Virus record (IMG/VR): IMGVR_UViG_3300028608_000006
Location: 167,789-231,788 of that record
Length of the DNA: 64,000 nt
Origin: a virus
Direction: 5' to 3' (one strand)
The notes beneath the pieces are model-generated. The model did no database searches, had not been told where the DNA came from, and saw nothing but the letters and a program-made list of their open reading frames with translations. A program made the position numbers and the translations under genes. Of the stretch, positions 7,947-63,984 are shown piece by piece; the first letter of the stretch is position 1; each line of letters starts with the position of its first letter.

Positions 7947-7978
7947 CACTCATTTACGTCGTGCGCTAACCGCGAGGG

Positions 7979-14081: not shown

Positions 14082-14108
14082 GTTAACCTCTCCAAGAAGG
14101 AATAATTT

Positions 14109-29392: not shown

Positions 29393-29419
29393 GTTCAACG
29401 TTTCCTTGAAGCGTGGAAG

Positions 29420-30373: not shown

Positions 30374-30415
30374 ATGCTATGTTCCTTTTAATTAACAGCC
30401 AATGGTAAAGCCCCA

Positions 30416-33236: not shown

Positions 33237-33276
33237 AATGCGTATACCTCGAAGTGTAGGGACAGGCAAGCATATC

Positions 33277-39435: not shown

Positions 39436-41780
39436 TACAAGCCCCCGTAAATATTGTCAGTACCGCCGGTAACCCCGGTCATGTGCAGGTCTTCACCGAA
39501 TGCTACCGGATTAGGCAAGCGCTTACCCGAGTAACGTGGTTCGGCAGGTGGAGCTGGTTCCGGTTCAGGCTTATTAAGACCGCTCTCAGCCAACTCGAGT
39601 GCCACGCCGCTCAACTGGCTCATATCGAGCAGGTTGTTGATTGGCTCCATGGTTCGGTCAGTCGGGAGTTCATGACGGATGGTGTAACCCGAGTCAGACA
39701 ACATACTTGCAGCCATCTTCACGGCCCGGTTGTTCTGATACTCGTCTGGCTTCACAATCTGATCGATGTTAAACGGATCGTCTGCCCGGATAATACGGCG
39801 CACCATCACTTTACGCAGATCCGGTGAATACGCCATGGCCAATTGCTTAGCCGTTTCCTGACCACCGTGTTGGCTGGTGCGCAGACGACCTTCCGTTTCA
39901 CCCGTGTTACGGTTGCCCTGATCTCGCAGCCAGCTGGAGTACTTGCTGCTGTCGTTCAGTTTAGCCGGCATACCGAACAGGTTGGACTTAGGCAATGCCT
40001 GAGCCGACATATCCGTACCGAACTTATCCAGCATCATGAAGTGCTGGTTACTGATCAGGATTGGGTTCACGGTCTCCACGTACTCACCCAGCGAGTTCAT
40101 GAAGGTTGCCTTCTGCGGTTTGAAGGGATACTTCGCGCGCAGGGCGTTGATGATCGCCACACCATACAACCGGGTGTTACTGCGAACATGGATAGAGATC
40201 ATCTTGTCGCAGCAGTGGTCGACGTAATCCTTAATGTCGTCCGCATTGGTGTAGGTCGCCCGAACGATCTCACCGAACTCCGGGAACCCAGTTTCGCAGA
40301 ACTCGAGGATCATTGCGTAAGCTTCAGCGTACTGACCCAGGTTACGAAGCAACCGCGCTTCTTTCTGGATGTTAACGTTGATGTAGTTGATACTGAGCTC
40401 CATCAACATCGAGTAGATCTGACGACGGAACGCTGGCGTGTTGTTGATGATGACTTCCGCACGAGTACCGTCCGCATAGGTCGGCGCCATGTGGTCCTCG
40501 ATGATGCTCACCGCAACACCTTTGTCGCCGTTCAACCCTGCGAACTTGAACTTGATCTTGCCAGGCACGATTTCGCGCAGCAGGATATTAATGTTCCAGT
40601 CCTTCAACTTGACCCGCTTGATCCCCCGGCTGAGTGGGTTGATCTTGCCAGTGTTGGTATTACGGGTGTAGTTGCCGTATGCCGAGTTAATGAAGGTATC
40701 CAGTTCCAGCGTGATCGGGATGTCATTACCACGGTTGTTCGCGATACGACGTTCGTACCAACGAATCACGTTGTTGTGCATCTCGTTCTGCTTCTTCTCA
40801 TAACGCTCGAGAAGAATGTTGTGTGGCTGCTCGATGTAATCCGTACCGCGATTGTTAGCGCGGTTCTTCATGCGGTCACTCAACACTTCGACCGACATTA
40901 CTTCCGAGTTGATCGGAGCGTAAAACAGTTGATCGTAGGTCAGGTCCGGGATACGCAAAGCTTTACGTGTCAACGACACCAAGGAGTTCTCGGTGATGCG
41001 ACGACGGAAGCCCATGACGATGCCGTCTTCACGAATGCGCTGACCCGATTGTGGGAACGGGCAGTCATTACCTTGTGCATCTTTGTAAAGCATCAACGGA
41101 ACGAATTCTTCCTCGTTCCACTGGAAACCACGTTCGTGCTTGAACATGCACTTCAAACGTTCTTCAGCGTACGATCGAGTCAGCTGAATTGCATCCTCCT
41201 CGGTAACGTGGCTGGAGATCGCTGCAACGCGGGTGTTCATGCCGAAGCACCATTCGCCGCTTTCGCTGATCCGTGGGGACTTGGCGAAGACCGTGCCTTT
41301 CGGGAAGGTGGCCAGTGGCGACATCAGCTTGCGCATCACGTCTTTGTCGTAGACAAACTCGAACCCCACATATGTGTTCTGTGTGTTGTACCGGGGGAGT
41401 TCAAGAATGTCGTACATGTTCTTTTCGTCATTCTTATAAATGACGTACACTTTGTTCCAGGCGTCAGTCATCTCACGCGGGTCTTGGCTCCCCACGAAGA
41501 ACACTTCTTCCACTTGCATGTTGGCTGGCGCTACAATCTGGCGAGCAGTTTGAGCGTAACCTTGTTTCCACTCAAAGCCAGTCACCATCATGCGCTCATC
41601 GGCACCCGAGGTAACTACCGACTTCGGAATCATGTTGCCGGCCATGTACAGACGACCAGCAGAAGCCGACCACGGGAACAGAATCAGGTTGTTACTGACA
41701 CCCACCAGCGCAGGATGGATTTGGTTCGGTCCGCAGATGTATTTATATTTAACATCTTGCTGAGTCTCGTTGTCACTCAT
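39435..41780 (-). CDS. RNA polymerase beta C-terminal subunit, non-virion polymerase
   Basis: 781 residues. The decisive element is KFKFAGLNGDKGVAV (410-424) followed by MAPTYADGTRAEVIIN (431-446), matching bacterial beta KMAGRHGNKGVIS and MPY-DG-PVDIVLNP. The invariant RH of GRHGNKG is LN here. A Pro/Glu-rich linker precedes the last 35 residues. There is a promoter-like element at 41833-41861 upstream of ATG 41780. By motif and neighbours it corresponds to phiKZ gp71-73. The N-terminal beta part (phiKZ gp123-like) is not in the window. Confidence 0.85.
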   Translation of the reverse strand: MSDNETQQDVKYKYICGPNQIHPALVGVSNNLILFPWSASAGRLYMAGNMIPKSVVTSGADERMMVTGFEWKQGYAQTARQIVAPANMQVEEVFFVGSQDPREMTDAWNKVYVIYKNDEKNMYDILELPRYNTQNTYVGFEFVYDKDVMRKLMSPLATFPKGTVFAKSPRISESGEWCFGMNTRVAAISSHVTEEDAIQLTRSYAEERLKCMFKHERGFQWNEEEFVPLMLYKDAQGNDCPFPQSGQRIREDGIVMGFRRRITENSLVSLTRKALRIPDLTYDQLFYAPINSEVMSVEVLSDRMKNRANNRGTDYIEQPHNILLERYEKKQNEMHNNVIRWYERRIANNRGNDIPITLELDTFINSAYGNYTRNTNTGKINPLSRGIKRVKLKDWNINILLREIVPGKIKFKFAGLNGDKGVAVSIIEDHMAPTYADGTRAEVIINNTPAFRRQIYSMLMELSINYINVNIQKEARLLRNLGQYAEAYAMILEFCETGFPEFGEIVRATYTNADDIKDYVDHCCDKMISIHVRSNTRLYGVAIINALRAKYPFKPQKATFMNSLGEYVETVNPILISNQHFMMLDKFGTDMSAQALPKSNLFGMPAKLNDSSKYSSWLRDQGNRNTGETEGRLRTSQHGGQETAKQLAMAYSPDLRKVMVRRIIRADDPFNIDQIVKPDEYQNNRAVKMAASMLSDSGYTIRHELPTDRTMEPINNLLDMSQLSGVALELAESGLNKPEPEPAPPAEPRYSGKRLPNPVAFGEDLHMTGVTGGTDNIYGGL

Positions 41781-41832
41781 TACAATCTCCTACCCACAAA
41801 TGCTCTGTTACAAAAAGAAATTGTTACCATAT

Positions 41833-41861
41833 CTAAACTAATGATATAGGTTTAAAATCGG
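41833..41861 (-). promoter_or_regulatory. Early-type promoter element before RNA polymerase beta gene
   Basis: On the minus strand reads CCGATTTTAAACCTATATCATTAG followed by TTTAG, about 50 bases before ATG 41780. It shares the CCTATATCATTAG core with the chmA element and the ATTTT upstream block with the others. Confidence 0.65.
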
Positions 41862-42241: not shown

Positions 42242-42266
42242 GGTAGGGGAGCACTGCTCCCCTACC
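42242..42266. terminator. Convergent bidirectional terminator
   Basis: Perfect 12-bp palindrome GGTAGGGGAGCA / TGCTCCCCTACC with a single-base centre, between the plus-strand 109-residue gene and the minus-strand Met-rich gene. Confidence 0.85.
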
Positions 42267-42286: not shown

Positions 42287-43738
42287 TTACCAGGATGCTG
42301 GACCAGCGCCGCCACCGTTGTCCGGGTAGACGCTAGGTGCGATGCCGCCGGCGGTGATTGGCTGGTTCATCATTGCCATCATCGGGTTCTGCATCATCAT
42401 CGGATTCATCATCATCATGGGGTTCATGTTCATCATGTTCTGACCCCCCATCATGTTGTTCATCAGAGCCTGGTTCTGCATTTGCATTGGGTTCAGCTCA
42501 ACGCGTTGCAGGAAGTTACCACGACGGGTGCAGTGGTACATCACAGGACCGCCGGTCATGCCGTTTACCGCATGGTGCAGCACACGACCCAGGTTCTGGT
42601 CGATCTCGGTACGAACATAACGATCGCCCGCTTGCATTGGTGGAGGAGTGAGGTCGTAATCACCTACCATCATGCTTTGGTTGTTGTTACCCTGGTTGTT
42701 GTTTTGCTGTTGATTGGTTTGTTGCATCTGCTGACCACCTTGATTGGTGGACGAGGAGACAGACAACAGGCCAGCCATGTCATTGCGACCCATGGCTTGG
42801 TTGCTGGTTTCTTCCATTGTGTTGTGGCTGTTGTAGTCCATGATCGGGACCTGACGATAAGTTTCTGGCAATTCCTCCAGATACTCATTCCAGTTCATGT
42901 CGATCATGTACACGCCGGCCTTGTCGAAGTCGCCGCGGAAGGTATTTTGTACCTTGTTCAGTTGATCCGCGATTTCGCTGTAGCAGCCCAGGTACGAGAT
43001 CAAACGTGCAGCCACCGGAGTGGTCGACTCGAACTCGTAGTCACCCGGGTTGTTGACCGCCGGCAGGATGGACTGGAACAGATGACGCGCCAGCTTGAGA
43101 GCAGCAATCGACACGCTGTGGTTGTTGAGCTCCACAGTTTGGTTGTCGCTGATGCCTTCCGAGCGAGCCAGGCGTTTAACGATCTCGTTGTAGAACGGGA
43201 ACGAAGGACGAGTCTTGTAGTAGACACGTTCGCCAGTGGCTTTGCTGCGACCGCCGCCTTTGGTCACGGTGAAGTGAATGAAGCGGTTGTCGAGGCCGTC
43301 TTCTTCCAGCTCGATGTGCATACGGGCGAACAGTTGGTTCAGTTCGTCACGCACAGAACGCTTGGCTTCTTTCAGGGGCTCCATCATGTCGATGATGTCC
43401 TGACGCCATGCTTTCTTTGGACGCGCCGCCGAAGCAATGCTGAACAGCACGATCGGGTACGCACGGAAGACCGACAGCAGTTTCATGCAGGTCATCTTGC
43501 GGATGATCTTGAAGACCTCAGTCTCCTTGCTGGTGATGTTCTCGCAGGCTGGGTGGAAGAACACCTTGTTGACCACGTTGCCGTCGAGGATGTTGCTCAG
43601 TGGCAGGTACATGTCCATCTCGTCAATACGGATGGGGAACTCTTCGCCGTTGATCACGAACATGATGCGACCGTCGTCCTTGACAGCGCAGTTCCAGGAT
43701 TTCAACATTGCAGCGTACAGCTTGTTCAATTCGTTCAT
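42287..43738 (-). CDS. Protein with Met/Asn-rich tail (phiKZ gp70 position)
   Basis: 483 residues. The first 310 form a folded, mixed alpha/beta part; then a Gln/Asn-rich linker (about 330-355); a short folded stretch; then an extreme Met/Asn/Pro tail (416-458) with repeats such as NPMMMMNPMMMQNPMM, ending in a Gly-rich Trp terminus. It lies between the PicA-position gene and the RNA polymerase beta gene, the place of phiKZ gp70. No enzymatic motif seen. The low-complexity tail could drive condensation or shell contact; that is speculation. Confidence 0.7.
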   Translation of the reverse strand: MNELNKLYAAMLKSWNCAVKDDGRIMFVINGEEFPIRIDEMDMYLPLSNILDGNVVNKVFFHPACENITSKETEVFKIIRKMTCMKLLSVFRAYPIVLFSIASAARPKKAWRQDIIDMMEPLKEAKRSVRDELNQLFARMHIELEEDGLDNRFIHFTVTKGGGRSKATGERVYYKTRPSFPFYNEIVKRLARSEGISDNQTVELNNHSVSIAALKLARHLFQSILPAVNNPGDYEFESTTPVAARLISYLGCYSEIADQLNKVQNTFRGDFDKAGVYMIDMNWNEYLEELPETYRQVPIMDYNSHNTMEETSNQAMGRNDMAGLLSVSSSTNQGGQQMQQTNQQQNNNQGNNNQSMMVGDYDLTPPPMQAGDRYVRTEIDQNLGRVLHHAVNGMTGGPVMYHCTRRGNFLQRVELNPMQMQNQALMNNMMGGQNMMNMNPMMMMNPMMMQNPMMAMMNQPITAGGIAPSVYPDNGGGAGPASW

Positions 43739-43755
43739 GAGTCGTTAACTCCTTA

Positions 43756-45195
43756 TCAGTAGCCGAAGTGTTCTTTGATGTTGGTGAGGTAGTTCTTCGC
43801 CGAACTCAGACCCACGTCATTACCAGCAATGTTGGTGCTGGTGCGGTTGATGCAGTACGTGGCGTTGGTGAACTGCTTGGTCAAAGCCAACTCACCGTTG
43901 AAGGCGATTGCCACCGTGGTCTCACCGAACATGTAGGAGTCAACTTCCACGTTCATGATGGTTTTCTGGTGGGCGTAAACCGAAGTGTACTTCTGGAAGA
44001 AGTGAGACTTCAGCAGTTCCTTGAATTTCTCCACGCGGTTGATCACGTAGTCATCGTGGTTGAGTACCGACATGGCCTCACCCGGAATGATTACGACGCC
44101 GTCTTCGTCACCGGCCATCCCGTTGAAATCCATCGGGTTGTTGGTGGCGCTGAAGTGGAAACTGGCCAGACCGCTTTGCAGCAACAGGTGAACCGTCAGG
44201 AACGCCAGCTCGGACGCCATCAGTTCGTGCGGGTTAGCACTGCCGTAAGCGGTGCTGGTGGCCAGCGTGTTGTCAGCCGCGAAGTTGCTCGACTGCAACA
44301 TGTTCAGGTTGAGTACGTCAGGGAAGTTGTTGAAGACCGTGTGGATCTCGCCAATCGAGAAACCCTGGAACCCCATCATGCTGTAGCCACCGGTGTTGAA
44401 CATCATGGTGGCGAAGAATGGGTTCTCGGTTACACCGATCTCGCCCAGACCCTGACTGCTCAGGTTATCAGCGATACCCATTTCCAAACCACCGAACTCG
44501 GCTTCTGTACCGGCGTTAGTCGCCAGACGCAGCAGCTCACGGGTGTGGTGAGTTGGGTTCAGGTTCTGGGTCTTCGAGACCACCATGGTCGTCTTGAGGT
44601 CAGTACCCACAGTGCCGTCGTAACGATCAGCACGACCTTCGTTCTCGCAAGCCAGGAAGCCCAGTGCTTCGTTGCCCACATCGATCGGACGCAGAGAGCG
44701 CAGGTTCTTGATCTGGTTAGGATCACCCATCAGGAATTGGTGGGAGGATTCCACAACCGTTTTGGTCATTGGGAAGCCGGAACTGTCTGCCACGTTCTGG
44801 GTCAGTGTATTCCACGCACGGACTGGAACGAATGTGACATCATTACTGATACCTTCGACCGACGCGGTACCGCCCACCAAGTAACCCACAACCGACAGCT
44901 CTTGTTGCACCAAAGCATTCGACTGCACCATGAAGCGCAGCATACCGATACCCCGGCGAACGTTCCAGCCGTCTTCTACTGTTACCATGCCCTGAGGCTG
45001 AGGCGACAGACCACCGGACATGGCGGCAACGTTGTTCAGTGTCGTTGCGGTAATGCCGCCTTGGTGTTGTTCCATCATCAGCTTGTCGAGTGCCATGCTG
45101 TCGATGTTCATGGTGTTGTGGCGGTGTACGTGATCGTGGTTCTGGTTACCCATGCCGAAGACTGCTTGGGTAAGGGTAATCGTTTGTTCGCTCAT
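43756..45195 (-). CDS. PicA-position protein (candidate nuclear import factor)
   Basis: 479 residues, soluble, rich in Asn, Thr and Gly, with a His cluster near the N-terminus (NHDHVHRHN, 19-27). No domain recognised by motif. Its place, directly after the candidate fifth RNA polymerase subunit and before the gp70-like and beta C genes, is where I recall phiKZ gp69 / PhiPA3 gp63 (PicA, needed for moving proteins into the phage nucleus). Assignment is by gene order only. Confidence 0.5.
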   Translation of the reverse strand: MSEQTITLTQAVFGMGNQNHDHVHRHNTMNIDSMALDKLMMEQHQGGITATTLNNVAAMSGGLSPQPQGMVTVEDGWNVRRGIGMLRFMVQSNALVQQELSVVGYLVGGTASVEGISNDVTFVPVRAWNTLTQNVADSSGFPMTKTVVESSHQFLMGDPNQIKNLRSLRPIDVGNEALGFLACENEGRADRYDGTVGTDLKTTMVVSKTQNLNPTHHTRELLRLATNAGTEAEFGGLEMGIADNLSSQGLGEIGVTENPFFATMMFNTGGYSMMGFQGFSIGEIHTVFNNFPDVLNLNMLQSSNFAADNTLATSTAYGSANPHELMASELAFLTVHLLLQSGLASFHFSATNNPMDFNGMAGDEDGVVIIPGEAMSVLNHDDYVINRVEKFKELLKSHFFQKYTSVYAHQKTIMNVEVDSYMFGETTVAIAFNGELALTKQFTNATYCINRTSTNIAGNDVGLSSAKNYLTNIKEHFGY

Positions 45196-45219
45196 TGGAT
45201 GCCTCTGGTTACAAGGTTA

Positions 45220-46776
45220 TTAAGAGTTGTTGTGGCGGATCAGTGCGATGAGCTCGTTCTTGATTTCGACTTCAATCTCCATCGGGAACATAGCTCCTTT
45301 TGCGACGCGGTTGTAAATGTCCGGATCGTCCAGTACCCCATACTCGAGGTTGGAGGTCCAGATACCGTTCCCCAGTTTCTCCAGGAAATCGGTGGCAGAC
45401 ACGATGGCTTCGTTAAACGAGCGCCCTTCATTGTTGCGGGACTGAATGTCACAGATCGACGTGAGGAACTCTTTGTCTTCTGTGTTCAGTTTCAGTCCTT
45501 CCGACAAGCTTCGCAGACCGTCCGGGTTATGGATCGCACCCAGAACAGACGGCAGGTACTTAAAGCCGAGCTCAGCCAACCGAACTTGCCCCAGTGCAAT
45601 CGCGGCCATCAGCTGAGTGTAGTTGAAAGTCCAGAACACCATCGGAGAAACTTCGAAAGCGTAAGTGAGCTGCAATACCTTAAGAATATGGTCGTGCAGT
45701 TCAAAATCCCAGTTTGGAGGTAGGCGGTCATAGACAGCTTCCACCAACTCTACCTGTTTAATGCCTAGGCCCATGCACTGGAACTTGAAGCGATCTTTCA
45801 CACGCTCCTTGTCAGTCTCATCGAACAGGCCAAAGGTAAAGTACTCGGCTTGCTTTTCTTCGTTGGCTGTCTTGGTAGACTCTGCAACTTGATAGCGTTC
45901 ATAGATCGAGCGCTTATCGTCGTCGTCGCCTTCGGAGAAGTCTTTCTTGTTCAGCTTGCTGCCGCTGGTCTCGTGTTGCTTAACCGAGGCGTTGATTGCG
46001 GTGGCCAGGTTCTTGCCGTCTTCCGTTTCCGGGATGACCGCGCAGCACAGGCGGCTGAAGATGGTGTTGTACAGAACCTTCTCGGTAAAGTACTCGTTAC
46101 TGGCAACCGCGTCGACCTGAGACGGGATACCACGTTTGTTGAAGGCAAACTGCACGTAAGTGTACAGCTTGTGCCAGCCCGGCATTTGGTTGATGCGTGG
46201 GTTGTTCTTGATCAACTCGCCGCACACCAGTTCACTGTGACCTGTACCCATGGTCATGTCAAAGCGACTGAGCAGGGAGAAGATGATCGGGAACGCTGCA
46301 CGGCACACAAATGCAAACTTGACCATCTCAACGTAGTCAACGTCGGTGATGGTGGTTTCTGCTGGGTAGTCACCTTTGCTGGCGGCCACACTCAGGTCCG
46401 GCGGGATGGCCAGATGTCGCGAGTACTGAATGAACGCACAGTACTTTGGAATATCGATGAACTCGAACAGGTTGTTAACGATTGGCAGCACTCGAGAGAT
46501 TTCGATGTTGTAGTCAAGAAATTTACCACTCTCAACGATTGCATGTGCCTTCTCGAACAACTTGAACAGTTCGATTTTCTTTTCCGTGGAGAATGTCGCT
46601 TCCACGTATTCATTGAAGCAGTCGAACAGGTTGGTTTCTTTGTCGTCTTTTTCCTTCAATACCTTTTCCAACCGGACGGTGGCTTTACCGTTGAAGCGGA
46701 GGGTCTTATCGTTGAGCGTCACGATAATAGCTTCTATCGTCTTCTTACTGCTCCGGCGGACCTCAACATTAAACAT
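45220..46776 (-). CDS. Candidate fifth subunit of non-virion RNA polymerase (phiKZ gp68-like)
   Basis: 518 residues, helical, with an acidic disordered stretch (about residues 278-292, EGDDDDK). No motif is diagnostic, as is expected for phiKZ gp68, the promoter-recognition subunit that lacks similarity to sigma factors. Length is close to what I remember for gp68 (about 520). Gene order ChmC-like, this gene, PicA-position, gp70-position, RNA polymerase beta C matches phiKZ. A promoter-like element lies 38-68 bases upstream. Confidence 0.55.
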   Translation of the reverse strand: MFNVEVRRSSKKTIEAIIVTLNDKTLRFNGKATVRLEKVLKEKDDKETNLFDCFNEYVEATFSTEKKIELFKLFEKAHAIVESGKFLDYNIEISRVLPIVNNLFEFIDIPKYCAFIQYSRHLAIPPDLSVAASKGDYPAETTITDVDYVEMVKFAFVCRAAFPIIFSLLSRFDMTMGTGHSELVCGELIKNNPRINQMPGWHKLYTYVQFAFNKRGIPSQVDAVASNEYFTEKVLYNTIFSRLCCAVIPETEDGKNLATAINASVKQHETSGSKLNKKDFSEGDDDDKRSIYERYQVAESTKTANEEKQAEYFTFGLFDETDKERVKDRFKFQCMGLGIKQVELVEAVYDRLPPNWDFELHDHILKVLQLTYAFEVSPMVFWTFNYTQLMAAIALGQVRLAELGFKYLPSVLGAIHNPDGLRSLSEGLKLNTEDKEFLTSICDIQSRNNEGRSFNEAIVSATDFLEKLGNGIWTSNLEYGVLDDPDIYNRVAKGAMFPMEIEVEIKNELIALIRHNNS

Positions 46777-46814
46777 GGGAATACTCCAGATGGAAAATTA
46801 CTATTATTGCTTTA

Positions 46815-46844
46815 CCTACTAATAATGTAGGCTCAAAAATATCC
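46815..46844 (-). promoter_or_regulatory. Early-type promoter element
   Basis: Minus strand reads GGATATTTTTGAGCCTACAT then TATTAGTAGG, ahead of ATG 46776. The ATTAGTAGGTAAA 3' part is identical to that of the chmA element at 55551-55579. Confidence 0.7.
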
Positions 46845-46866
46845 AACGAGCCATAAGTCCGTTAAT

Positions 46867-46893
46867 CGAACGCAGGGGAATCCCCTGCGTTCG
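46867..46893 (-). terminator. Intrinsic terminator hairpin
   Basis: Perfect 13-bp stem CGAACGCAGGGGA / TCCCCTGCGTTCG with a one-base loop after the gene at 46911 (minus strand), directly before the promoter-like element of the next gene. Confidence 0.85.
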
Positions 46894-46910
46894 TTATTAA
46901 AGGCTATGCC

Positions 46911-47648
46911 TTAGAAGTCGACATCTTCGTCGAACGAATTACCGCCGCTATCGAAGTCGTTACCGCCACCCGAGTTACCGCCGCCACCGCCATTGCCACC
47001 ACGGTTACCGCCAGCCGCCGGAGCGCCATCTTTAGGCTTGGCCGGTTCCCAGCTGGTGGTGTCCATGTTGTCGAGGATCGGACGGTGGAAGTTGACCCAG
47101 GCACGAACAGCCCAACGCGACATCACGCCTTCGTCGATGTAACGCTCGCCAGCATCGTTCTTCATGTAGACGACGGTGTCTTTCGGACCCTTGAACTTGA
47201 ACTGGACTTTGTAGTCGCCCTTGCTGTAGCCCAAGGTGATGCAACCGTCTTTGTCGCGGGTGATGGTCAGGAACACTTGCAGGACTGGCTGGTCGGACAT
47301 GCGACCGCTACCGCCGGCGAATACGAACTGCTTCCACTGCACCGCGATCTGGCGGGTCTTGAAGTCCGGGTTAGTGGTCGCTTCAATCAGTGCATCGAAC
47401 AACACGCCACGGTGCATGTAGTCCATTTCCACTTCTTTGTGGTTGGTCTTAGCGCCTTCTTTATAGACACCGTCGTTGACCTTGAGCATCAGCTTGCCGT
47501 TGTTGGCTTGCTCCCACATCAACTGTGCAGGATACTTCGCACCGGCAACCGGCTCGATGGAAGTTGGGTGCGGCTGACGGTAGTCGTTCAGCAGGATTTT
47601 CTTACGAGGTGTGAAGGCAGGGCGTTGACCGTTGTTGTTACCATTCAT
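46911..47648 (-). CDS. Single-strand nucleic-acid-binding-like protein (ChmC candidate)
   Basis: 245 residues. A beta-rich core (about 15-200, with KLMLKVNDGVYKE, VLQVFLTITRDKDG and YKVQFKFKGPKDTVVYMK) is followed by a Gly/Asn-rich linker (GGNRGGNGGGGGNSGGGN) and an acidic, aromatic tip ending DEDVDF, the layout of single-strand-binding proteins. It immediately precedes the gp68-like gene, where PhiPA3 gp61 (ChmC, a Whirly-fold RNA-binding protein of the phage nucleus) is found. It could be ChmC or the phage SSB; the sequence does not separate them. Confidence 0.6.
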   Translation of the reverse strand: MNGNNNGQRPAFTPRKKILLNDYRQPHPTSIEPVAGAKYPAQLMWEQANNGKLMLKVNDGVYKEGAKTNHKEVEMDYMHRGVLFDALIEATTNPDFKTRQIAVQWKQFVFAGGSGRMSDQPVLQVFLTITRDKDGCITLGYSKGDYKVQFKFKGPKDTVVYMKNDAGERYIDEGVMSRWAVRAWVNFHRPILDNMDTTSWEPAKPKDGAPAAGGNRGGNGGGGGNSGGGNDFDSGGNSFDEDVDF

Positions 47649-47712
47649 GATTGATGACCTTGGATAAGGAAATGAAGAAGTTTTTGTCTATATACATTGG
47701 GTTGCGGTGAGA

Positions 47713-48519
47713 TTAAAGCATTAACAGTAACCCAGCTTTATCCACACCTGAAGGCAGGCTGTTGATGGTGCCCCTTATACGACCAATGGTCGTAGCGGAT
47801 GTCCAGTGATTGTCCGTGGCGAGCTTCTTGACCAGTTCTCGGATGCCATGAGAGGAAGCCTTGAAGTTGGTAGACTTGTCGCCAAAGATCTGAATAGTGA
47901 GGCGGTTGAACGGGATGTAATGCAGTTCTTTACCGCCAGTCAGCTTGGTGTACCAAAGCGTGAACGGCTTGAGAATCCCGGTATGGGACTCCAGTAGCCA
48001 TAACCGCGCAATACCCGCGGCAGTGGTTAGATCGACGACATGGTGCGTCAATACAATCCCTTTGCCATTGAACGGGGGTAGCTTAGCTTTGGTTTCAACA
48101 ATCATCTTGCCATACTGCTTGATCAACTTCTCCACCACCACATTAACCAATGCAGCAGTGACCTTTTGCTTCTCAGTCGCGTTCTTCGAGTTCTTCGAAT
48201 GGTCCACGAGATCAGCTTTAGGGAAGTCGCTTTTCAATCCGCTGTAGTCAGGGCAGTACACCACCATTTGAATAGGTTTGTGTTTACGGGCTTGATCCAA
48301 CCACCCGCCAATAAGACGCAAGTCACTGGAGACATCTTCCGCCAACTGAACAGCATCGTGGGCTTCTTTGTCAGCTGTCTCGTAGGACTGCATGGCATTA
48401 CGGATCAGCGTACGCAGGTTGAACATCACCGTGTCCGCCGAGCGTATACCATTAGCGCCTTCGCCTTCGAAAGCAAGGGAAGTCCCGACGGACATCCCCA
48501 GTGTACCGGTGGATCTCAT
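47713..48519 (-). CDS. Hypothetical protein
   Basis: 268 residues, ATG 48519 overlapping the stop of the phosphoesterase gene (ATGA). Mixed alpha/beta, basic, with no motif recognised. It lies between SbcD-like and ChmC-like genes, which suggests DNA metabolism, though nothing in the sequence shows it. Its own 64-base downstream gap (47649-47712) is AT-rich, reading AATGTATATAGAC on the minus strand, a possible promoter for the ChmC-like gene. Confidence 0.65.
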   Translation of the reverse strand: MRSTGTLGMSVGTSLAFEGEGANGIRSADTVMFNLRTLIRNAMQSYETADKEAHDAVQLAEDVSSDLRLIGGWLDQARKHKPIQMVVYCPDYSGLKSDFPKADLVDHSKNSKNATEKQKVTAALVNVVVEKLIKQYGKMIVETKAKLPPFNGKGIVLTHHVVDLTTAAGIARLWLLESHTGILKPFTLWYTKLTGGKELHYIPFNRLTIQIFGDKSTNFKASSHGIRELVKKLATDNHWTSATTIGRIRGTINSLPSGVDKAGLLLML

Positions 48520-49631
48520 AGGAACTCCCTGAGCACCGACATGGCCTCGTCTTCTGATATGTCATGCTTTTCCAGATCTGCTTTGATCTCTGGAAGTAAC
48601 GCAGATTCAATGTTGTCTTTGTTGATCGTCACACCCTCGTAGACCGTGCTGTCAAATAACTCTTCATCCAACAAGACACCTTCGGCCATCTCGTTTTCAG
48701 CTTTGATCCGCAGGTCAGGGTATTCCCGACTCAACACCGACACAACCGGGTTCACAATCTCAGCCAAGCCACCCATGATGCGAAGGTTACTGTGCTTAGG
48801 GAAATTGCGATCCCGTATAAAGGTGTGAATGTCCGCTACCAGTCGTTCAGGAGTAATATCCTTTTCGACATTCATCGTGACGTAAGGCAGCGCATTCTTG
48901 TTTTCCCAGAAGACCGGCTTAAAGTCTCCCGTCTTCAAATTCAAATCAATGCAGTAGCCGCCCTTCGGATGTTCCTCACCGTGTTTATCACGATCGAACG
49001 AACCCGAGGTATACAACTTGCCAATCTGAACAGGTTTGTGGATATGACCTGCGAAGATGGCGTACTTAACGATACTTTCCCAGCGCTCCAAGTTGTGTGC
49101 CTTGTGACGGGCCTTGGGATGCAGCTGGAACTCGAAAGCACCGTGAAAGGCAATCATGTCAACCTTATCAAGGTTGGCCGCTCTGAGGACCTGTAGGGCC
49201 TTCTCCCAGATATCGTCTGGAGTCATGGTTCCCATGTTGTCCGGAACATACATGACGGTTAAGCCATCCTGATCCGGGTAGGTCTCAATGCACAAGGTAT
49301 CAATGTAGCGGAAATCTAAACCTTCCGGTGCAATGAACTGGAAGTGTGCCGGCTGACCCATGTCGTGAGACTCAGTACCAGCCAGAAAGATCACTCTGAC
49401 ATTGTGCTTCTTGCAACGGAGGAAGAACTGTTTAGCCCACTCCTCAACACGAAACATGTCAGGGTTAGGGCGTTCCACCATGCGTTCAAAGAAGTCGCCA
49501 CCAAAGAAGATCGTATCCACCTTGTCCAAGTCGTGGTCCTTATAAAGGAAGGTCGACAAGTTACCCAAGATGTGTTTCGTTGGTGTGTTGCTGTGTAGCG
49601 TGTGGTGATCTGAACTCCAGAGCATCCGCAT
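48516..49631 (-). CDS. SbcD/Mre11-like metallophosphoesterase
   Basis: 371 residues. Calcineurin-like nuclease motifs in order: SSDHH (Asp8, His10 region), FFGGDFFE (about 43-50), AGTESHD (about 86-92, in place of GNHD), AFHGAFE (about 165-171) and FAGHIHKP (about 195-202). This is the SbcD/Mre11/T4 gp47 layout, a manganese-dependent DNA exonuclease/endonuclease subunit used in recombination and end processing. No SbcC partner is visible in this window. Starts MRMLWSS after AAAGGGGAAG. Confidence 0.85.
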   Translation of the reverse strand: MRMLWSSDHHTLHSNTPTKHILGNLSTFLYKDHDLDKVDTIFFGGDFFERMVERPNPDMFRVEEWAKQFFLRCKKHNVRVIFLAGTESHDMGQPAHFQFIAPEGLDFRYIDTLCIETYPDQDGLTVMYVPDNMGTMTPDDIWEKALQVLRAANLDKVDMIAFHGAFEFQLHPKARHKAHNLERWESIVKYAIFAGHIHKPVQIGKLYTSGSFDRDKHGEEHPKGGYCIDLNLKTGDFKPVFWENKNALPYVTMNVEKDITPERLVADIHTFIRDRNFPKHSNLRIMGGLAEIVNPVVSVLSREYPDLRIKAENEMAEGVLLDEELFDSTVYEGVTINKDNIESALLPEIKADLEKHDISEDEAMSVLREFL

Positions 49632-49645
49632 GTGGAACTTCCCCT

Positions 49646-49798
49646 TTACACTTTACGCGATACCGCCACAGTTACCAGTGTCTTGGACTTACTGAGTCGG
49701 GTCATCAACCGATATGCGGCGATTGCTTGTTTGCCCGGGACCAGCTTATCGAAAGTGTAGTAATTCGTACCGATCAAGACTAATGGATGAACTGTCAT
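49646..49798 (-). CDS. 50-residue small protein
   Basis: ATG 49798 preceded by AAGGAAG at good spacing; the frame MTVHPLVLIGTNYYTFDKLV... ends at TAA 49648-49646, 15 bases before the phosphoesterase start. It fills what would otherwise be the only sizeable hole in this operon. Basic C-terminal half (SKSKTLVTVAVSRKV). No family recognised; the good ribosome site and exact fit make a real gene likely. Confidence 0.6.
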   Translation of the reverse strand: MTVHPLVLIGTNYYTFDKLVPGKQAIAAYRLMTRLSKSKTLVTVAVSRKV

Positions 49799-49807
49799 GT
49801 TGCTTCC

Positions 49808-50566
49808 TTAGCATTCCAGTGGATTGGCTGGGGCTTCACGCTCTGCGGCAGCGGTGGTGGTCGGTGCAGCTTCAACCTTGCCTTCGATGATGAACTGATT
49901 CAGGCTCAGCTCGGCGAGGAACTTGTACTCTTCAGCACTCACCAGTTCTTTACGGTGGTCGCGGTAGAGAATGTCACGCGACTTGGTGATGTCTTCGATC
50001 GGCGCTTTGCCACGACGGATGAAGTCCTTGATGTAGTAGACCTTGCGCTCTACCTCAGGGATGATGCCGTACTTGGTGTAGAACTCAGGCGACACCAAGT
50101 CGGTGATGGTCAGACGCTCGGCCTGGAGGTGCTTCTTCACCATGCTGGCCACGCCCATGCTGGCGTTTGGATCCTGGCTGCGAGTGGTGTCGGCCTGAAC
50201 CTGCTGGATGTGACGGCTCACGGCACGCATCATCTCGAAGTCGTGCGGGGTCATGTTGTGTGCGATCAGCGGCTTCACCAGCAATACCGGTTGGTCGTTG
50301 TCGTCCACTACCAGCACCGACTGAGTACCACGGTTGCTCATGGTGTGCCACTTCGGTGCGTTGAAGTAGTTGACGCCCAGATCGTTACCCAACGCAAAGC
50401 CCATCAGCCATTCTTTTACGAAGTCCGCTTCACGCAAAACCGCCGCTACGTTGAACGGCATGTCGTCGTTGCCCAGCATGAGTTTGCCGTCGACGTTGAT
50501 AACCTGAATATCCTTGAGCCAGCCGAAATCTTCCGCGATAATGGCCTGACGTTGTTCTTTGTTCAT
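49808..50566 (-). CDS. Hypothetical early-block protein
   Basis: 252 residues from ATG 50566, which overlaps the stop of the upstream gene (ATGA) and has GGAG at correct spacing; the ATG at 50578 is less likely. Soluble, acidic, Ala/Thr-rich C-terminal tail. No motif recognised. Part of the operon between the beta' N gene and the phosphoesterase gene. Confidence 0.7.
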   Translation of the reverse strand: MNKEQRQAIIAEDFGWLKDIQVINVDGKLMLGNDDMPFNVAAVLREADFVKEWLMGFALGNDLGVNYFNAPKWHTMSNRGTQSVLVVDDNDQPVLLVKPLIAHNMTPHDFEMMRAVSRHIQQVQADTTRSQDPNASMGVASMVKKHLQAERLTITDLVSPEFYTKYGIIPEVERKVYYIKDFIRRGKAPIEDITKSRDILYRDHRKELVSAEEYKFLAELSLNQFIIEGKVEAAPTTTAAAEREAPANPLEC

Positions 50567-50967
50567 CCCAATCTCCATGTGTCAATGAGTTTATATTGTT
50601 CGCCGGTGATCAACACCGCATTAGCCAGATCGTAAGCCACGCCGTCACTGATGACCTTAACGGCGATGATGAGTCTGTATTGATTGACCTGCCCAGTAAG
50701 ATTTTCCCTGCTGACCGACACCGAGCAATCAGAGAACAGTTCCTTGATGTAACGCTCCAGCTCATCACGGGCTTGTTCTATCAGTTTGTCAGGATCCTGC
50801 CCGTACTGCTTAATGAGGAAGTAAAAGCTTGGGACTTTGCCCATGACCTTGCCCTGGTTCCGACGACTTGTGAACCAGTACGTAATGTGCTTAGACAACG
50901 CGTCAACAACGGAGTTAAATTCCCATCCGTTTGACGTGGTCATCGTTCCAACCAAAAATGTTCCCAT
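50563..50967 (-). CDS. Small hypothetical protein
   Basis: 134 residues from ATG 50967 (GGAAGG upstream), preferred over an open but improbable extension to 51021. Alpha/beta with a central strand pair (YRLIIAVKVISDGV). The pattern of an N-terminal helix and two strands vaguely recalls small phage wedge or anti-host proteins, but I cannot assign it. Coupled to the next gene by ATGA. Confidence 0.65.
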   Translation of the reverse strand: MGTFLVGTMTTSNGWEFNSVVDALSKHITYWFTSRRNQGKVMGKVPSFYFLIKQYGQDPDKLIEQARDELERYIKELFSDCSVSVSRENLTGQVNQYRLIIAVKVISDGVAYDLANAVLITGEQYKLIDTWRLG

Positions 50968-51030
50968 AAATGTGGCCTTCCGTTGAAATATAGAGACTGT
51001 TGCCTTCGTAATATCAAACAAAAAAATAAA

Positions 51031-51061
51031 CTAAACAGGAAGGGGTTACCCTCCTGTTTAG
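51031..51061 (-). terminator. Intrinsic terminator with U-tract
   Basis: Ten-base-pair stem CTAAACAGGA / TCCTGTTTAG; the minus strand continues TTTATTTTTTTG, a classical U-tract. It ends the chmA-distal unit after the 51073 gene. Confidence 0.85.
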
Positions 51062-51072
51062 CTCATCGTCTA

Positions 51073-51711
51073 TTACTCGGCTTCAGGCTCTACATACGAC
51101 TTCAGCTTGGCACCTTCCTCACTGGTCAAGTCAAACATCTTCTTGGCCCTGTGATGGTCGATAGCCACCCACGTCTTATGAGAGTCTACCCGCTCACGGA
51201 ACGACAACTGTCCGCCAACGGTATCGAAGTAATGAGTGTGGCGAAGCTGGGCTTTGTCATCGACAGTTTCCAGATTCAGCACGCCGTTCATTACCCGACG
51301 GTAGAACAAGTTGTCTGCACCTACACCGGTGTTCCAGTTACTGAAGTCACCACCGTAGCCGGAGATTTCTTCATCGAGGTACATTTGCATCATCGCAGGG
51401 TGAGCCATGATGATGTCACGCATGTGGCCTTGAGCGCCTTGGAGCGCTTCGATGCTCCCCAAGTAACCGATCTCATAGCGACCTACGTAATCACCATCCG
51501 ACGTACCCAGCAGACGTTTACCCATTTCCCAAGCACGCGAGTTCACGAACTTGTCGAATGTTTCCAACGTCTTATTCGCTTGCTGAGCCAGCCAACCTCC
51601 TGCCCCCTGCAAGAGTGAAGCGCTCTGGTTTACATAGTCGCCGTACTTGGCGATTTGGTTCTCGGTAAAGCTACCCGAGATTGCGTAACTAAAAGCGTTT
51701 GCGCTGTTCAT
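51073..51711 (-). CDS. Hypothetical protein following RNA polymerase beta' N gene
   Basis: 212 residues, start 2 bases after the beta' stop (TGATATG), so coupled to it. Soluble, Gly/Ala/Tyr rich in the middle, no motif recognised. By position it would correspond to phiKZ gp56. Followed by a strong terminator. Confidence 0.65.
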   Translation of the reverse strand: MNSANAFSYAISGSFTENQIAKYGDYVNQSASLLQGAGGWLAQQANKTLETFDKFVNSRAWEMGKRLLGTSDGDYVGRYEIGYLGSIEALQGAQGHMRDIIMAHPAMMQMYLDEEISGYGGDFSNWNTGVGADNLFYRRVMNGVLNLETVDDKAQLRHTHYFDTVGGQLSFRERVDSHKTWVAIDHHRAKKMFDLTSEEGAKLKSYVEPEAE

Positions 51712-51712
51712 A

Positions 51713-53350
51713 TCACTCCTGGATAAGATCAGTCTGTGCCATGAGCGTGTTGAGGTTCATCAAGTTTGTTGCAGCTTGACCAGCGTAGCCACCCACCCGG
51801 AACGGAATGTTCTTGTCGAGTACTTGGTGGTGACCGAAACCGCCGTACGCTTTGGCCTTGGACTCGTTATCGAAAATAGCGACGATATACATCTGGTCGC
51901 CGTCGAAGTCAGCGTTGAAAGTTTTGACCCCCAGGATTGGGAGTTTGATGCTTTCGTCTGACAGATCACGGTTGGCCTTGAGGAAGAACGAACGCAGACT
52001 GAGGAATTCGATCGAAGGATTTCGACCGGTCTCAATCAAGCACTTGCGATTAACTTCCATGTCCGTGAAGAAGTCATCGATCTCCGGAACAATCTCAAAC
52101 GCCGCTTTGTTAATGAGCGCCTGCGATTTCCAAGGAGTCATGCCCAGCCGGTATAGATAGCTGGTGATGTGATATTCCAAAATGGCAATACACATCTTCC
52201 ACGGTACAATCAACACATCGGTATCAATGATGCCGGTCTGCGAGGTGATCACAGAACGACCCGTGAACGGAATGGAACCCGCACACACATGCTTCCGGGA
52301 AATCGCTGGTTTGTTAAACAACGCTTTCGGGTTGTTCACCTGACGGTACTGGTCTGCCAGCAACACCAAGTTCTTGCCGACAATGTCGACGTTCCGGCGA
52401 TGGTCCTTGCTATCCAACTGATAACAGGTGTTGGACTTCAGGGTGTCAGCAATCGCGTTATACAGCTGCGCGGTTTCAGGATGGTGAGAGTAGCTGTACA
52501 CATCCTTGCCGGTTCGCTCAAACACTGTGGAGTAGCGCTTGGGAACCTTGATGTACTGACAGAATGCGAGGTGCTTGTACTTGTGGTAGAACGCCAGGAA
52601 CTTGTGACCTTCCTGCGGGTGTTTGCTGTAACGCTTACCCGGTCCCACCAGAATGTATTCCATGATCTGATCAGCGTTCTCAAAGAACGTGTTCAGGTTC
52701 GGATCCCGGATACCCAATGCTTCGAGCATCTGGAACAGAATGATCATGGTGCCGTTCTTTTTCTTCTTCTCAGCCTTTTGATAGGTTGGGTCGATGAAGT
52801 AACGCGGAACGGATACTTTGGGGCTCGGGTTCCCGATTGAAATGTTGCTAAAGAATGTAGTGAAGAACCCGATGTTGACAAAGCTCTTGACACCTTCTGG
52901 ACATTTGAGCCAGAGGTTAGTGTCATCACCCTTGTCGAGGAACTGCTGGGCTTCGTCACCACACTTGGTGCAAACGCGCCCACTACCCAGTAGGTAGTTA
53001 CCCACCAACCCGCCGGTGCCTGGAGCACAGCTACAACGCGCGACAGTGTCGAACGAGTTGCTGTCAAACTCCAACCGAGTCATACGAGCGAGTGCTTCGC
53101 GGTCGTCTTCTAGGTTGAAGTCGAAATCGTTGAGGTATACCTGATTCAACCGACTGGTATCGTGCAGGTAGTTAAAGTCCTCGAATTCCGGGTACAGCGG
53201 TAAAGAGAATTTCGGATCGTCATACAGCGGACCAGGAAACTTCTTCGCGTACCCATGGAAGTGCATAATGGGGTCGAGTTGGTCTGGTCGCTTTACAGTT
53301 AACGCCGCAATTGCTCGTTCGTTGGAAGGAGTTAATTCTGGCAACTTCAT
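51713..53350 (-). CDS. RNA polymerase beta' N-terminal subunit (catalytic loop)
   Basis: 545 residues. Zinc ribbon Cys106, Cys108, Cys127, Cys130 (CSC...VCTKCGDE) matches beta' CLCG...CEKCGVE. The catalytic NADFDGDQM (479-487, Asp481/483/485) is complete, so this subunit carries the metal-binding aspartates. The protein stops about 60 residues past the catalytic loop, the remainder of beta' being a separate gene (37420). It lies directly downstream of the chimallin candidate, as phiKZ gp55 follows gp54, so I place it in the non-virion enzyme. Confidence 0.88.
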   Translation of the reverse strand: MKLPELTPSNERAIAALTVKRPDQLDPIMHFHGYAKKFPGPLYDDPKFSLPLYPEFEDFNYLHDTSRLNQVYLNDFDFNLEDDREALARMTRLEFDSNSFDTVARCSCAPGTGGLVGNYLLGSGRVCTKCGDEAQQFLDKGDDTNLWLKCPEGVKSFVNIGFFTTFFSNISIGNPSPKVSVPRYFIDPTYQKAEKKKKNGTMIILFQMLEALGIRDPNLNTFFENADQIMEYILVGPGKRYSKHPQEGHKFLAFYHKYKHLAFCQYIKVPKRYSTVFERTGKDVYSYSHHPETAQLYNAIADTLKSNTCYQLDSKDHRRNVDIVGKNLVLLADQYRQVNNPKALFNKPAISRKHVCAGSIPFTGRSVITSQTGIIDTDVLIVPWKMCIAILEYHITSYLYRLGMTPWKSQALINKAAFEIVPEIDDFFTDMEVNRKCLIETGRNPSIEFLSLRSFFLKANRDLSDESIKLPILGVKTFNADFDGDQMYIVAIFDNESKAKAYGGFGHHQVLDKNIPFRVGGYAGQAATNLMNLNTLMAQTDLIQE

Positions 53351-53387
53351 TTACAATAACTCCAAAAATATAAGAAGGCGTAGATAA

Positions 53388-53417
53388 GGGTTAGGAAGAC
53401 CGAAGCCTCCCTAACCC
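53388..53417 (-). terminator. Intrinsic terminator hairpin
   Basis: Eight-base-pair stem GGGTTAGG / CCTAACCC extended by partial pairing, after the chimallin candidate on the minus strand. Partial read-through into the RNA polymerase gene 37 bases on would explain a shared promoter with much lower expression of the latter. Confidence 0.7.
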
Positions 53418-53446
53418 CATCCATGTTTACTTAACCTTGGTTAGAA

Positions 53447-55462
53447 TCAACCGAAGGCTTGACCCATGCCGTAGCCTGCACCGATGCCGGCACCGCTTGG
53501 GTTGTTGCTGCCAACCGAGGTGTAGGTAGCCAGACCAGCGCCCGGTGCGAACACCAGAGTGTTGGAACGGAACGAACCCAGGTTGTTGGCGACGTTCAGA
53601 GTACCGATGCCGTCCATTGCTTCGCCGATAACGGCCATCAGCTGCGGATCCCAGATGTGAGTCTGAGCGAACGAGTTGATGTGGACTGCGCCGTCGAAGA
53701 TCGACTGGTTCAGTTCCAGACGCAGTTTCTGGCAACGAGCTTTGAAGTCCTCGTTGGTCATGCCGTACTGGGTAGCCAGGTACTGCTGGATCGACGCGGT
53801 GCCGCCTTTGCCCTTGAGGTGACCGAGCATCATCTCGTCCAGCTCTTGGGTGTTCAGCTTCTTGCCGCCGATTTCCGCCAGGCCGTTGACAGTGATGACC
53901 GGAGTACGGTGCAGCACAGGCATGCTTGGGTTCCAGCCGGTGGTGGCCTTGATGTTGCGATCAACCAGAGTCGAGAACGCACCATTCGACAGCGCATCCA
54001 GGATGGCGATCATGGTTTGTACTTCTTCCTTGCGGTTCTTGCTCGCCAGGCGAACCAGGAAGTTCTGGATCGAGGCGTGCGGGCCGCATGGGTTGATGTT
54101 GACCTGGAACGTAGCGTGCGGGCTGACGTTCTGACGGATCCAGGAGTTAACCAGGTCGGTGTCAGAAACAGTCTTCTCGGTCAGCACGATGCGGTTAGGC
54201 ACGGTACCAACTTGAGCCAGCATTTCGTCGATACGGACTTCCAGGGAAGCCAGGTTACCGCGAGCGCCAACGCTGTGCTTACGCAGAGCTTCAGCGAACA
54301 CGAAGTTGTTGTTGGTTGCCATCAACAGGTACAGGCCGAAGAAGAACGGCGCCAGACCTTGGTTGTAGCTCATCATCTCGCCAGCTTGCGCTTCTTCGAT
54401 GGTGATCACCGGTGCCAGAGGACGGTAGCCCTGTGGGTAGATGCCGCCGCCCAGGTTCATCATGCGTTGCAGGGCTTCTTGCTGCTGACGACCGGAAGCG
54501 GCTGCCAGTTGAGCGGTGTAGGCCTGGAACGATTGTGCGTTCAGAGCGACCGTTGCGGTAACGCGAGCGATCTCCTTGCTGTTCGCAGCGTAGGCGTTCG
54601 GGTTGTTGATGTTGTTCATGGTGGAAGCGATCACTTCCATGTTGGCCGCCGACAGAGTCTTGCCGGCGGTTACACGACCGCTGATAGCCGAGACGCGGGC
54701 TTCAGCATGACCGTCCTTGCCGTAAGGCGAGGTCTTGTTGGCGAAAGGCGAAGGCAGTTTCTGACCAGCGATGGCCATTTCCTGCGGAACCTTGACCAGC
54801 AGTGCTTCTTCCCATGCACCGGTGAGGTACTGAGACAGAGCGTGCGGACGATCTTTCGGATCACCAGCTTCTGGGTGGTCCAGCATTTCCAGGTCGACAA
54901 CCACCATGTTGATGATGGTAACGGCCTTGACGCCTTTGGATTCGCCGACGCGGGTGTAGTGAGCACGCAGGTTGTCGACGACGTTCTTGTCGGCGTAGCT
55001 GGCCGGGGTCAGTGGCGCCGATACCGATTGCGAAACGCCGGTGCCGAAGCCCATCGGGGTGTTCATGCGGATGTATTCGGAGCTGATGGTCAGGTGCTTG
55101 TTGGAGAACAGAGCGCCCATGACGTACAGCACGCCGCCGATTTCGCGGTAGAAGCAGATGCCAGGCAGAACAGGCGAGATCGACGGAGTCATGGATTCGA
55201 CGTCCGGGATGATGCTCAGTTGCAGCTCGGTCGTGGTGGACGACTTGATGCGCTTGTAGGTTTCGATGATCGCTTCGGTGGTGTCCGCTACTTCTTTCAG
55301 GTTGCGGTTGTCCGAGGTCATCGAGACCAGACCGAACAGACCAGCGAGGCCGCCTTTAGCCAGACCGGAAGTGGTGGTCAGGATTGCTGCGTCATCGGCA
55401 GCATCTTTACCTGCTGCGTTGTTGCCGTCTTCCCAGGAAGATTTGCCAGTGTTAACGCTCAT
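53447..55462 (-). CDS. chmA: Chimallin candidate (phage nucleus shell protein)
   Basis: 671 residues from ATG 55462 (GGAG upstream); an open upstream extension is non-coding and overlaps the promoter. The body is soluble, alpha/beta and Ala/Asn rich with a flexible Gly-rich C-terminal tail (last 30 residues, GSNNPSGAGIGAGYGMGQAFG-like). Third-position C/G bias is among the strongest in the window, as expected for a very abundant protein. It has the best copy of the early-type promoter element and is followed by the RNA polymerase beta' N gene, exactly as phiKZ gp54 is followed by gp55. Known chimallins are about 610-630 residues. Identification rests on position, promoter and size, not on a recalled sequence match. 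Confidence 0.7.
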   Translation of the reverse strand: MSVNTGKSSWEDGNNAAGKDAADDAAILTTTSGLAKGGLAGLFGLVSMTSDNRNLKEVADTTEAIIETYKRIKSSTTTELQLSIIPDVESMTPSISPVLPGICFYREIGGVLYVMGALFSNKHLTISSEYIRMNTPMGFGTGVSQSVSAPLTPASYADKNVVDNLRAHYTRVGESKGVKAVTIINMVVVDLEMLDHPEAGDPKDRPHALSQYLTGAWEEALLVKVPQEMAIAGQKLPSPFANKTSPYGKDGHAEARVSAISGRVTAGKTLSAANMEVIASTMNNINNPNAYAANSKEIARVTATVALNAQSFQAYTAQLAAASGRQQQEALQRMMNLGGGIYPQGYRPLAPVITIEEAQAGEMMSYNQGLAPFFFGLYLLMATNNNFVFAEALRKHSVGARGNLASLEVRIDEMLAQVGTVPNRIVLTEKTVSDTDLVNSWIRQNVSPHATFQVNINPCGPHASIQNFLVRLASKNRKEEVQTMIAILDALSNGAFSTLVDRNIKATTGWNPSMPVLHRTPVITVNGLAEIGGKKLNTQELDEMMLGHLKGKGGTASIQQYLATQYGMTNEDFKARCQKLRLELNQSIFDGAVHINSFAQTHIWDPQLMAVIGEAMDGIGTLNVANNLGSFRSNTLVFAPGAGLATYTSVGSNNPSGAGIGAGYGMGQAFG

Positions 55463-55550
55463 GTTGTAACTCCATTGCTCTGAAGAATTAGTGGGGTATA
55501 TCGTAATCGCTGTTTTTAACAGTATTGCTAATAGATCTTCTAGCGATTTA

Positions 55551-55579
55551 CCTACTAATGATATGGGTCTCAAATATTC
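55551..55579 (-). promoter_or_regulatory. Early-type promoter element before chimallin candidate
   Basis: Minus strand reads GAATATTTGAGACCCATATC then ATTAGTAGG, about 90 bases before ATG 55462. Best defined copy of the recurrent element; its ATTAGTAGGTAAA end is identical to the copy at 46815-46844. Confidence 0.75.
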
Positions 55580-63955: not shown

Positions 63956-63984
63956 CCCACAAGTAATATAGGGGTGAAATTCTC
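63956..63984 (-). promoter_or_regulatory. Early-type promoter element before phuZ
   Basis: Minus strand reads GAGAATTTCACCCCTATATT then ACTTGTGGG, 50-80 bases before ATG 63906. It contains TATATTAC, which I recall as the core described for phiKZ early promoters. A run of ten G (minus strand, 63988-63997) lies just upstream. Confidence 0.7.

Follow-up and report, generated by a model that had tools for sequence, protein, structure and literature searches.

The 64,000-nucleotide stretch of DNA analysed here (the window), corresponding to positions 167789-231788 and thus to the terminal part of the 231,788-bp virus record IMGVR_UViG_3300028608_000006, almost certainly comes from a nucleus-forming jumbo phage (Chimalliviridae) in the EL/RisingSun branch and carries its conserved block of nucleus and transcription genes. 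The shell protein ChmA, a multisubunit phage RNA polymerase (RNAP) and conserved core blocks, by which this family is recognised, are all encoded. Judged by its sequence, the phage is a new uncultivated species of this branch, and a near-identity DNA search in named phages returned a single 63-bp match and nothing more. The initial annotation of positions 42287-55579 had proposed a gene order like that of phiKZ gp54-55 and gp67-74. All open reading frames (ORFs) named there are present on the minus strand at the positions given, and the order was borne out, with phiKZ gp54, 55, 67, 68, 69 and 70 matching the same PHROGs. The genes for the C-terminal parts of RNAP beta and beta' had been identified correctly, but both lie just to the left of that interval. 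The homologues of phiKZ gp59, gp62, gp65 (SbcD-like) and gp66 and the early-promoter sites go beyond what had been named.

By homology and by the fold of its model, the 671-residue protein proposed as the shell component is a chimallin. It matches phrog_4795, "nuclear shell protein", at E 1e-138, is 53-56% identical to ChmA of EL and RisingSun, and has relatives in 69 phage records as identified by tblastn, each covering at least 80% of ChmA. A model of modest confidence (mean predicted local distance difference test score, pLDDT, of 56) was built from 16 window and IMG/VR sequences. Its comparison with the PDB by Foldseek, which covered the suggested 201phi2-1 and Goslar chimallins, yielded nine chimallin chains from 201phi2-1, Goslar and PhiPA3 (including 7sqq, 7sqt and 8fne) at E 2e-18 to 3e-15, while non-chimallin matches were no better than E 0.46. 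In chimallins, protomers are joined by flexible tails at both termini; in the present model, of modest confidence overall, residues 1-54 and 626-671 have a pLDDT below 50, as disorder would give. No second ChmA homologue, and hence no better candidate, was found in the 231,788-bp record, in which the gene is single-copy.

The assignment of the N-terminal beta' subunit was confirmed by its match to phrog_2987 and by the active-site motif NADFDGD, of the DxDGD type; it is 57% identical to its RisingSun and 65% to its EL counterpart. The two halves of the C-terminal beta subunit, encoded here by a single gene, are homologous to phiKZ gp71 and gp73. The gene proposed as gp68-like, gp68 being the sigma-like subunit and its neighbour gp67 being ChmC (PMC12571901), shares phrog_3209 with phiKZ gp68, and the EL-branch profile ranked phiKZ gp68 first of 192 ORFs at E 0.001, a value that is weak taken alone. 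Although phiKZ gp68 has been solved (7ogp, 7ogr, 8que, 9rjs), a PDB sequence search with an EL-branch gp68 profile matched nothing, as a profile of three sequences cannot bridge so large a distance. Since the N-terminal beta subunit (gp123 homologue) lies at positions 158263-159915 of the record, outside the window, and the remaining parts lie within it, a complete five-part non-virion polymerase composed of four beta/beta' fragments and the gp68-type subunit is, by homology, encoded. In EL, the beta'-N frame (EL locus 28226-31274) ends at 480 amino acids and is followed by gp025, whereas it comprises 543-545 amino acids here and in RisingSun, a difference that points to an insertion or an intron in EL.

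Nine genes of the block (at 51713, 51073, 50563, 48516, 47713, 46911, 45220, 43756 and 42287) belong to the same PHROGs as phiKZ gp55, gp59, gp62 and gp65-gp70. Because these PHROGs probably include EL proteins, a position-free test was added, in which EL-branch profiles were run against the full set of 192 phiKZ ORFs with 150 or more amino acids. The five profiles, those of ChmA, ChmC, gp68, PicA and gp70, all put their expected phiKZ counterpart in first place; the E-values for ChmA and gp68 are weak singly, and it is the first ranks that carry the argument. PicA and gp70, named from their position before, now have sequence support as well, by PHROG membership and by rank. For PicA, the protein that lets selected proteins into the phage nucleus (PMC11087766), phiKZ gp69 was retrieved at E 3e-6, hhalign gave a collinear alignment across 398 columns (E 1e-4), and the gene stands between those of gp68 and gp70, as in phiKZ. 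The gp70 homologue retrieved phiKZ gp70 at E 4e-7 and PhiPA3 gp64 by BLAST at E 1e-11. The hhalign comparison of EL-branch with phiKZ-branch ChmC was weak (E 0.004), so that an extended profile was needed, made of 18 diverse ChmC without those of phiKZ and PhiPA3; the E-value of gp67, ranked first, went from 0.23 with the EL-branch profile to 2e-7. The ChmC-like gene also shares phrog_3284 with phiKZ gp67, and its homology to phiKZ gp67 and PhiPA3 gp61 is thus supported by sequence. For ChmC and PicA of PhiPA3, sequence search detected no relative of solved structure, and the EL-branch ChmC profile found no match among PDB sequences.

The order PhuZ, DNA polymerase, an opposite-strand head-protein gene, ChmA, beta'-N, gp59, gp62, a 256-amino-acid gene, SbcD, gp66, ChmC, gp68, PicA and gp70 is identical in EL, RisingSun and 20 IMG/VR loci, which were compared only as far as each extends and of which L027 and L035 are, by length and position, EL and RisingSun themselves. 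The arrangement matches EL gp23-gp35 plus gp38-39 and RisingSun gp28-41 plus gp43-44, and a like order with small insertions is found in phiKZ and PhiPA3, where gp61, gp63 and gp64 of PhiPA3 were noted within a well-conserved block (PMC10643120). Genes for nucleus building and transcription remain together even where single proteins have diverged past detection by BLAST, and the block adds deep-branch sequences of the proteins for shell, import and RNA binding. Long plus-strand ORFs opposite the block (e.g. 668 amino acids at 39843-41849) were taken as antisense shadows, since the conserved genes occupy the minus-strand frames.

Generic scans for sigma-70 promoters and terminators gave counts not above those in shuffled sequence; promoters are therefore argued from a phage-trained matrix and terminators from hairpins in conserved places only. 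The matrix, with 21 positions and derived from eight sites of EL, RisingSun and phiKZ only, identified exactly four sites in the window at any threshold between 12 and 16 bits, where simulated sequence gave 1.6 to 0.2. These sites, upstream of chmA, gp68, RNAP beta-C and phuZ, agree with the AT-rich early motif known for virion RNA polymerases in this phage group (PMC7598289, PMC5312081), and the EL record bears promoter annotations at two of the corresponding places. The unit from beta'-N to chmC has no early-promoter matrix match of its own and is presumably transcribed either by read-through from the promoter of chmA or from a later promoter. GC-rich hairpins follow chmA, chmC and gp70. The first of these, between chmA and beta'-N, which the generic terminator scan did not flag, is likely to be a terminator or attenuator. 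The rest of the record holds 14 further distinct matrix sites, a fifteenth being the phuZ site repeated at the record start. All 18 matches are located on the minus strand, although more than one third of the 232 called genes (143 on the minus strand) are on the plus strand, and early transcription seems to proceed around the genome in a single direction.

While the kind of block described here is already known (PMC10299810), the ChmC tail is a novel lead, and the interest of the locus lies in this tail together with the added regulatory map. The C-terminus of the window ChmC consists of a Gly-rich linker and the acidic tip FDEDVDF, similar to that of single-strand-binding proteins (SSB). The layout of bacterial SSB is a binding domain, a Gly-rich linker and DDDIPF, and the RisingSun ChmC tip FDEDIPF can be set beside MDFDDDIPF of E. 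coli SSB (PMC5531588). In all of the first five ChmC compared, a low-complexity linker of Gly, Asn and Ser leads to an acidic tip whose last residue is Phe. A rule devised after these tails had been seen (Phe as last residue; three or more acidic and no basic residues among the final nine) holds for 20 of 20 proteins of one ChmC set, the window ChmC included, and for 20 of 22 when Goslar (...DDDDPSVAFDGLAF) and SPN3US (...SYDEFL) are added. The compared set of 132 proteins contains no compliant tail apart from those of the five ChmC; genome-wide, ChmC is the sole match in the 232 called genes here and in 206 of EL, and one of two in 349 of phiKZ.

It is possible, though less likely than not, that ChmC acts as the phage's single-strand-binding protein, either in addition to exporting mRNA or in place of it. 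In that case ChmC would be a hub for single-stranded nucleic acid whose acidic tip recruits partners in the manner of bacterial SSB, a reading favoured by the binding domain, linker and tip common to most homologues and the rarity of such a tail in the genomes searched. The Pfam SSB family (PF00436) was found neither in 16 chimalliviruses and SPN3US nor in this genome, whereas phiR1-37, which encodes multisubunit RNAPs and no chimallin (PMC10299810), has such an SSB and lacks ChmC, a contrast resting on one genome. Furthermore, Iyer et al. (PMC7824862) list an OB-fold SSB in other groups of jumbo phages and not in the phiKZ group. On the other hand, published work on ChmC describes RNA binding and mRNA export (PMC12908238, PMC13282480), with mRNA bound and possibly exported by the protein (PMC12908238); two of the tips deviate, and an acidic tail is also present on the RNA chaperone Hfq (PMC5606850). 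A host SSB or an unrecognised one could also serve, and the search for T4 gp32-type SSB (PF08804), which had no working positive control, was uninformative. Because the SSB-family domain was not found and the Foldseek search with the ChmC model gave no match at E 0.001, ChmC was not classed as an SSB-family member; a repeated four-strand-plus-helix (Whirly/PC4-like) topology was likewise dropped as an impression, Foldseek being empty. Tentatively, we propose that ChmC works in part like an SSB: a nucleic-acid domain outside the SSB family could be joined by the Gly/Asn-rich linker to an SSB-like tip serving as a docking site for nucleases or for partners in replication or transcription. Besides carrying mRNA, ChmC might then, though this is less likely than not, fill the place of the SSB that nucleus-forming phages seem to lack. 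Deleting the tip in phiKZ or EL makes it simple to ask which protein covers single strands within the nucleus and by what means ChmC reaches its partners.

Turning back to the block as a conserved unit for nucleus and transcription, gene identity, gene order, promoter-like sites and the fold of the shell protein are established here, and every functional step, including the roles of ChmA, PicA, gp68 and ChmC in infected cells, is inferred by homology from characterised proteins. Most probably, the virion RNA polymerase would enter together with the injected DNA, start at the AT-rich early promoters and drive chmA, gp68-picA-gp70, the RNAP beta-C and beta'-C genes and phuZ. ChmA would self-assemble into the shell, through which PicA would pass selected proteins; gp70 and the homologue of gp59 would probably be close by. 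The beta/beta' fragments and the sigma-like gp68 would assemble into the non-virion polymerase, by which middle and late genes are transcribed within the shell, and ChmC would coat the transcripts and aid their exit.

Several points weigh against this interpretation. The PHROG E-values are boosted by EL proteins, which are presumably family members; ChmA, ChmC and PicA of the EL branch are very distant from those of phiKZ; the hhalign result for ChmC is weak; the 16-sequence EL-branch ChmA profile ranked gp54 first, yet at E 0.14 only; and the confidence of the ChmA model is modest. It would accordingly be imaginable that the genes are homologous and no nucleus is built, the shell protein or import factor having changed function in this branch, the more so as its sequences lie far from those of the studied phages. 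We regard this as very improbable, as intact versions of ChmA, ChmC, PicA, gp68 and gp70 are conserved throughout the branch as far as the retrieved DNA covers them, ChmA of EL and RisingSun falls into the same nuclear-shell family, and PhuZ is present. That the order resembles phiKZ by coincidence, with ChmC, PicA, gp68 and gp70 merely at the expected positions, can practically be dismissed: the initial annotation had no sequence evidence for these four, and direct BLAST of ChmC, PicA and gp68 against phiKZ found nothing at E 0.01, but the five first ranks were obtained irrespective of position and the PHROG memberships are concordant.

Table 1. Predicted features of the block and its flanks, listed in the direction of transcription (positions in the window).
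Feature	Position	Strand	Basis
Early promoter of phuZ	63962..63982	-	matrix, 21.8 bits
PhuZ spindle tubulin	62911..63906	-	phrog_4733 E 1.5e-82
Divergent family B DNA polymerase (gp50 homologue)	58024..60102	-	PF20286 E 8e-239
Early (virion-RNAP type) promoter of chmA, ATATTTGAGACCCATATCATT	55557..55577	-	matrix, 23.0 bits
ChmA, chimallin (phiKZ gp54 homologue), 671 aa	53447..55462	-	phrog_4795; identity to EL/RisingSun ChmA; fold
GC-rich hairpin between chmA and RNAP beta'-N	53385..53420	-	read directly; similar hairpins in same place in EL, RisingSun
Non-virion RNAP beta' N-terminal subunit (gp55 homologue), 545 aa	51713..53350	-	phrog_2987 E 1.4e-138; PF00623 above cut-off
phiKZ gp59 homologue, 212 aa	51073..51711	-	phrog_3254 (common with phiKZ gp59); 72% EL gp027
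phiKZ gp62 homologue	50563..51021	-	phrog_3294
EL gp029 / RisingSun gp35 homologue, 256 aa, in gp63/gp64 place	49808..50578	-	phrog_14597; 40% identity
SbcD/Mre11-like nuclease (gp65 homologue)	48516..49631	-	phrog_100 E 9e-40; phiKZ gp65 E 9e-34
phiKZ gp66 homologue	47713..48519	-	phrog_3229
ChmC, RNA-binding nuclear-shell protein (gp67 homologue), 245 aa	46911..47648	-	phrog_3284 E 6e-58
Perfect GC hairpin (CGAACGCAGGGGATTCCCCTGCGTTCG) between chmC and gp68	46867..46893	-	read directly; hairpins in same place in EL, RisingSun
Early promoter of gp68-picA-gp70	46821..46841	-	matrix, 18.2 bits; EL putative promoter annotated in same place
Sigma-like fifth subunit of non-virion RNAP (gp68 homologue), 518 aa	45220..46776	-	phrog_3209 E 1e-115
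PicA/Imp1 nuclear import protein (gp69 homologue), 479 aa	43756..45195	-	phrog_3141 E 2e-88
gp70 homologue (PhiPA3 gp64, shell-associated), 483 aa	42287..43738	-	phrog_3520 E 4e-109
Intrinsic terminator (predicted) after gp70, 11-pair stem	42242..42266	-	terminator scan
Early promoter of RNAP beta-C	41840..41860	-	matrix, 20.0 bits
Non-virion RNAP beta C-terminal subunit, single gene	39435..41780	-	phrog_3295 E 2e-218
Non-virion RNAP beta' C-terminal subunit (gp74 homologue)	37420..39435	-	phrog_3015 E 4e-191
gp75-type helicase, 767 aa, intein-like insert in P-loop	35057..37360	-	sequence comparison

With regard to the smaller genes of the block, phiKZ gp59 is probably the import factor Imp3. 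The first in-frame start of the gp62 homologue is TTG, and its N-terminus is about 18 residues longer than in EL and RisingSun. PhiKZ gp59 was an uncharacterised hit in an antisense screen (PMC12571901). Between gp70 and beta-C, a small plus-strand gene of 109 amino acids (41888-42217, phrog_3455), all of whose neighbours are on the minus strand, is conserved with RisingSun gp42 (51%). An HNH/NUMOD4 homing-type endonuclease at 32733-33269 on the minus strand is related to phiKZ gp72, which lies between the RNAP genes gp71 and gp73.

The insert of the helicase comprises about 255 residues located exactly in the P-loop (GYGK|ALANSTPV ... VTHN|T). It begins with Ala and has a block-B Trp, a block-F Cys and a block-G Thr, as in class 3 inteins. 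Helicase and insert were matched at full length in 10 of 12 IMG/VR relatives and in EL, and the insert is absent from RisingSun, G004 and G005; a related insert is present in EL RNAP beta'-C. At positions 6041-9310 of the record (minus strand), a 1089-residue protein is homologous to a phiKZ protein of 717 residues (12584-14737). It is probably the terminase large subunit with an intein, because the EL terminase (1089 residues) also matches the intein-like region of the helicase. The two ends of the record share about 127 bp, differing only in the length of a C run (window 63962; record position 91), and owing to this repeat the 231,788-bp record probably represents a complete circular map.

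Among the known systems, gp28-gp45 of RisingSun (NC_042018, Erwinia phage vB_EamM_RisingSun) comprise the same genes in the same order, including an intact beta'-N of 543 amino acids and the small opposite-strand gp42, but differ by a protein identity of 40-61%, an intein-free helicase and the additional small genes gp31-33. The order is also the same in gp23-gp39 of EL (NC_007623, Pseudomonas phage), with 40-72% protein identity and promoters annotated at phuZ and the gp68 homologue, whereas EL is distinguished by the insertions gp025 and gp037, the latter an annotated transposase, by the intein-like insert in RNAP beta'-C and by the shorter beta'-N ORF. PhiKZ gp54-gp75 and PhiPA3 gp53-gp68 have in common the core order ChmA, beta'-N, gp59, gp62, gp65-gp70, beta-C, beta'-C and helicase. 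In contrast to the window, however, their ChmA, ChmC, PicA and gp68 cannot be aligned with it by BLAST, extra small genes (gp56-gp64) are present, and beta-C is split into gp71 and gp73 with gp72 between them. The Chimalliviridae core genome consists of 72 core genes in seven blocks of conserved order (PMC10299810), and the present locus is one such conserved-order region.

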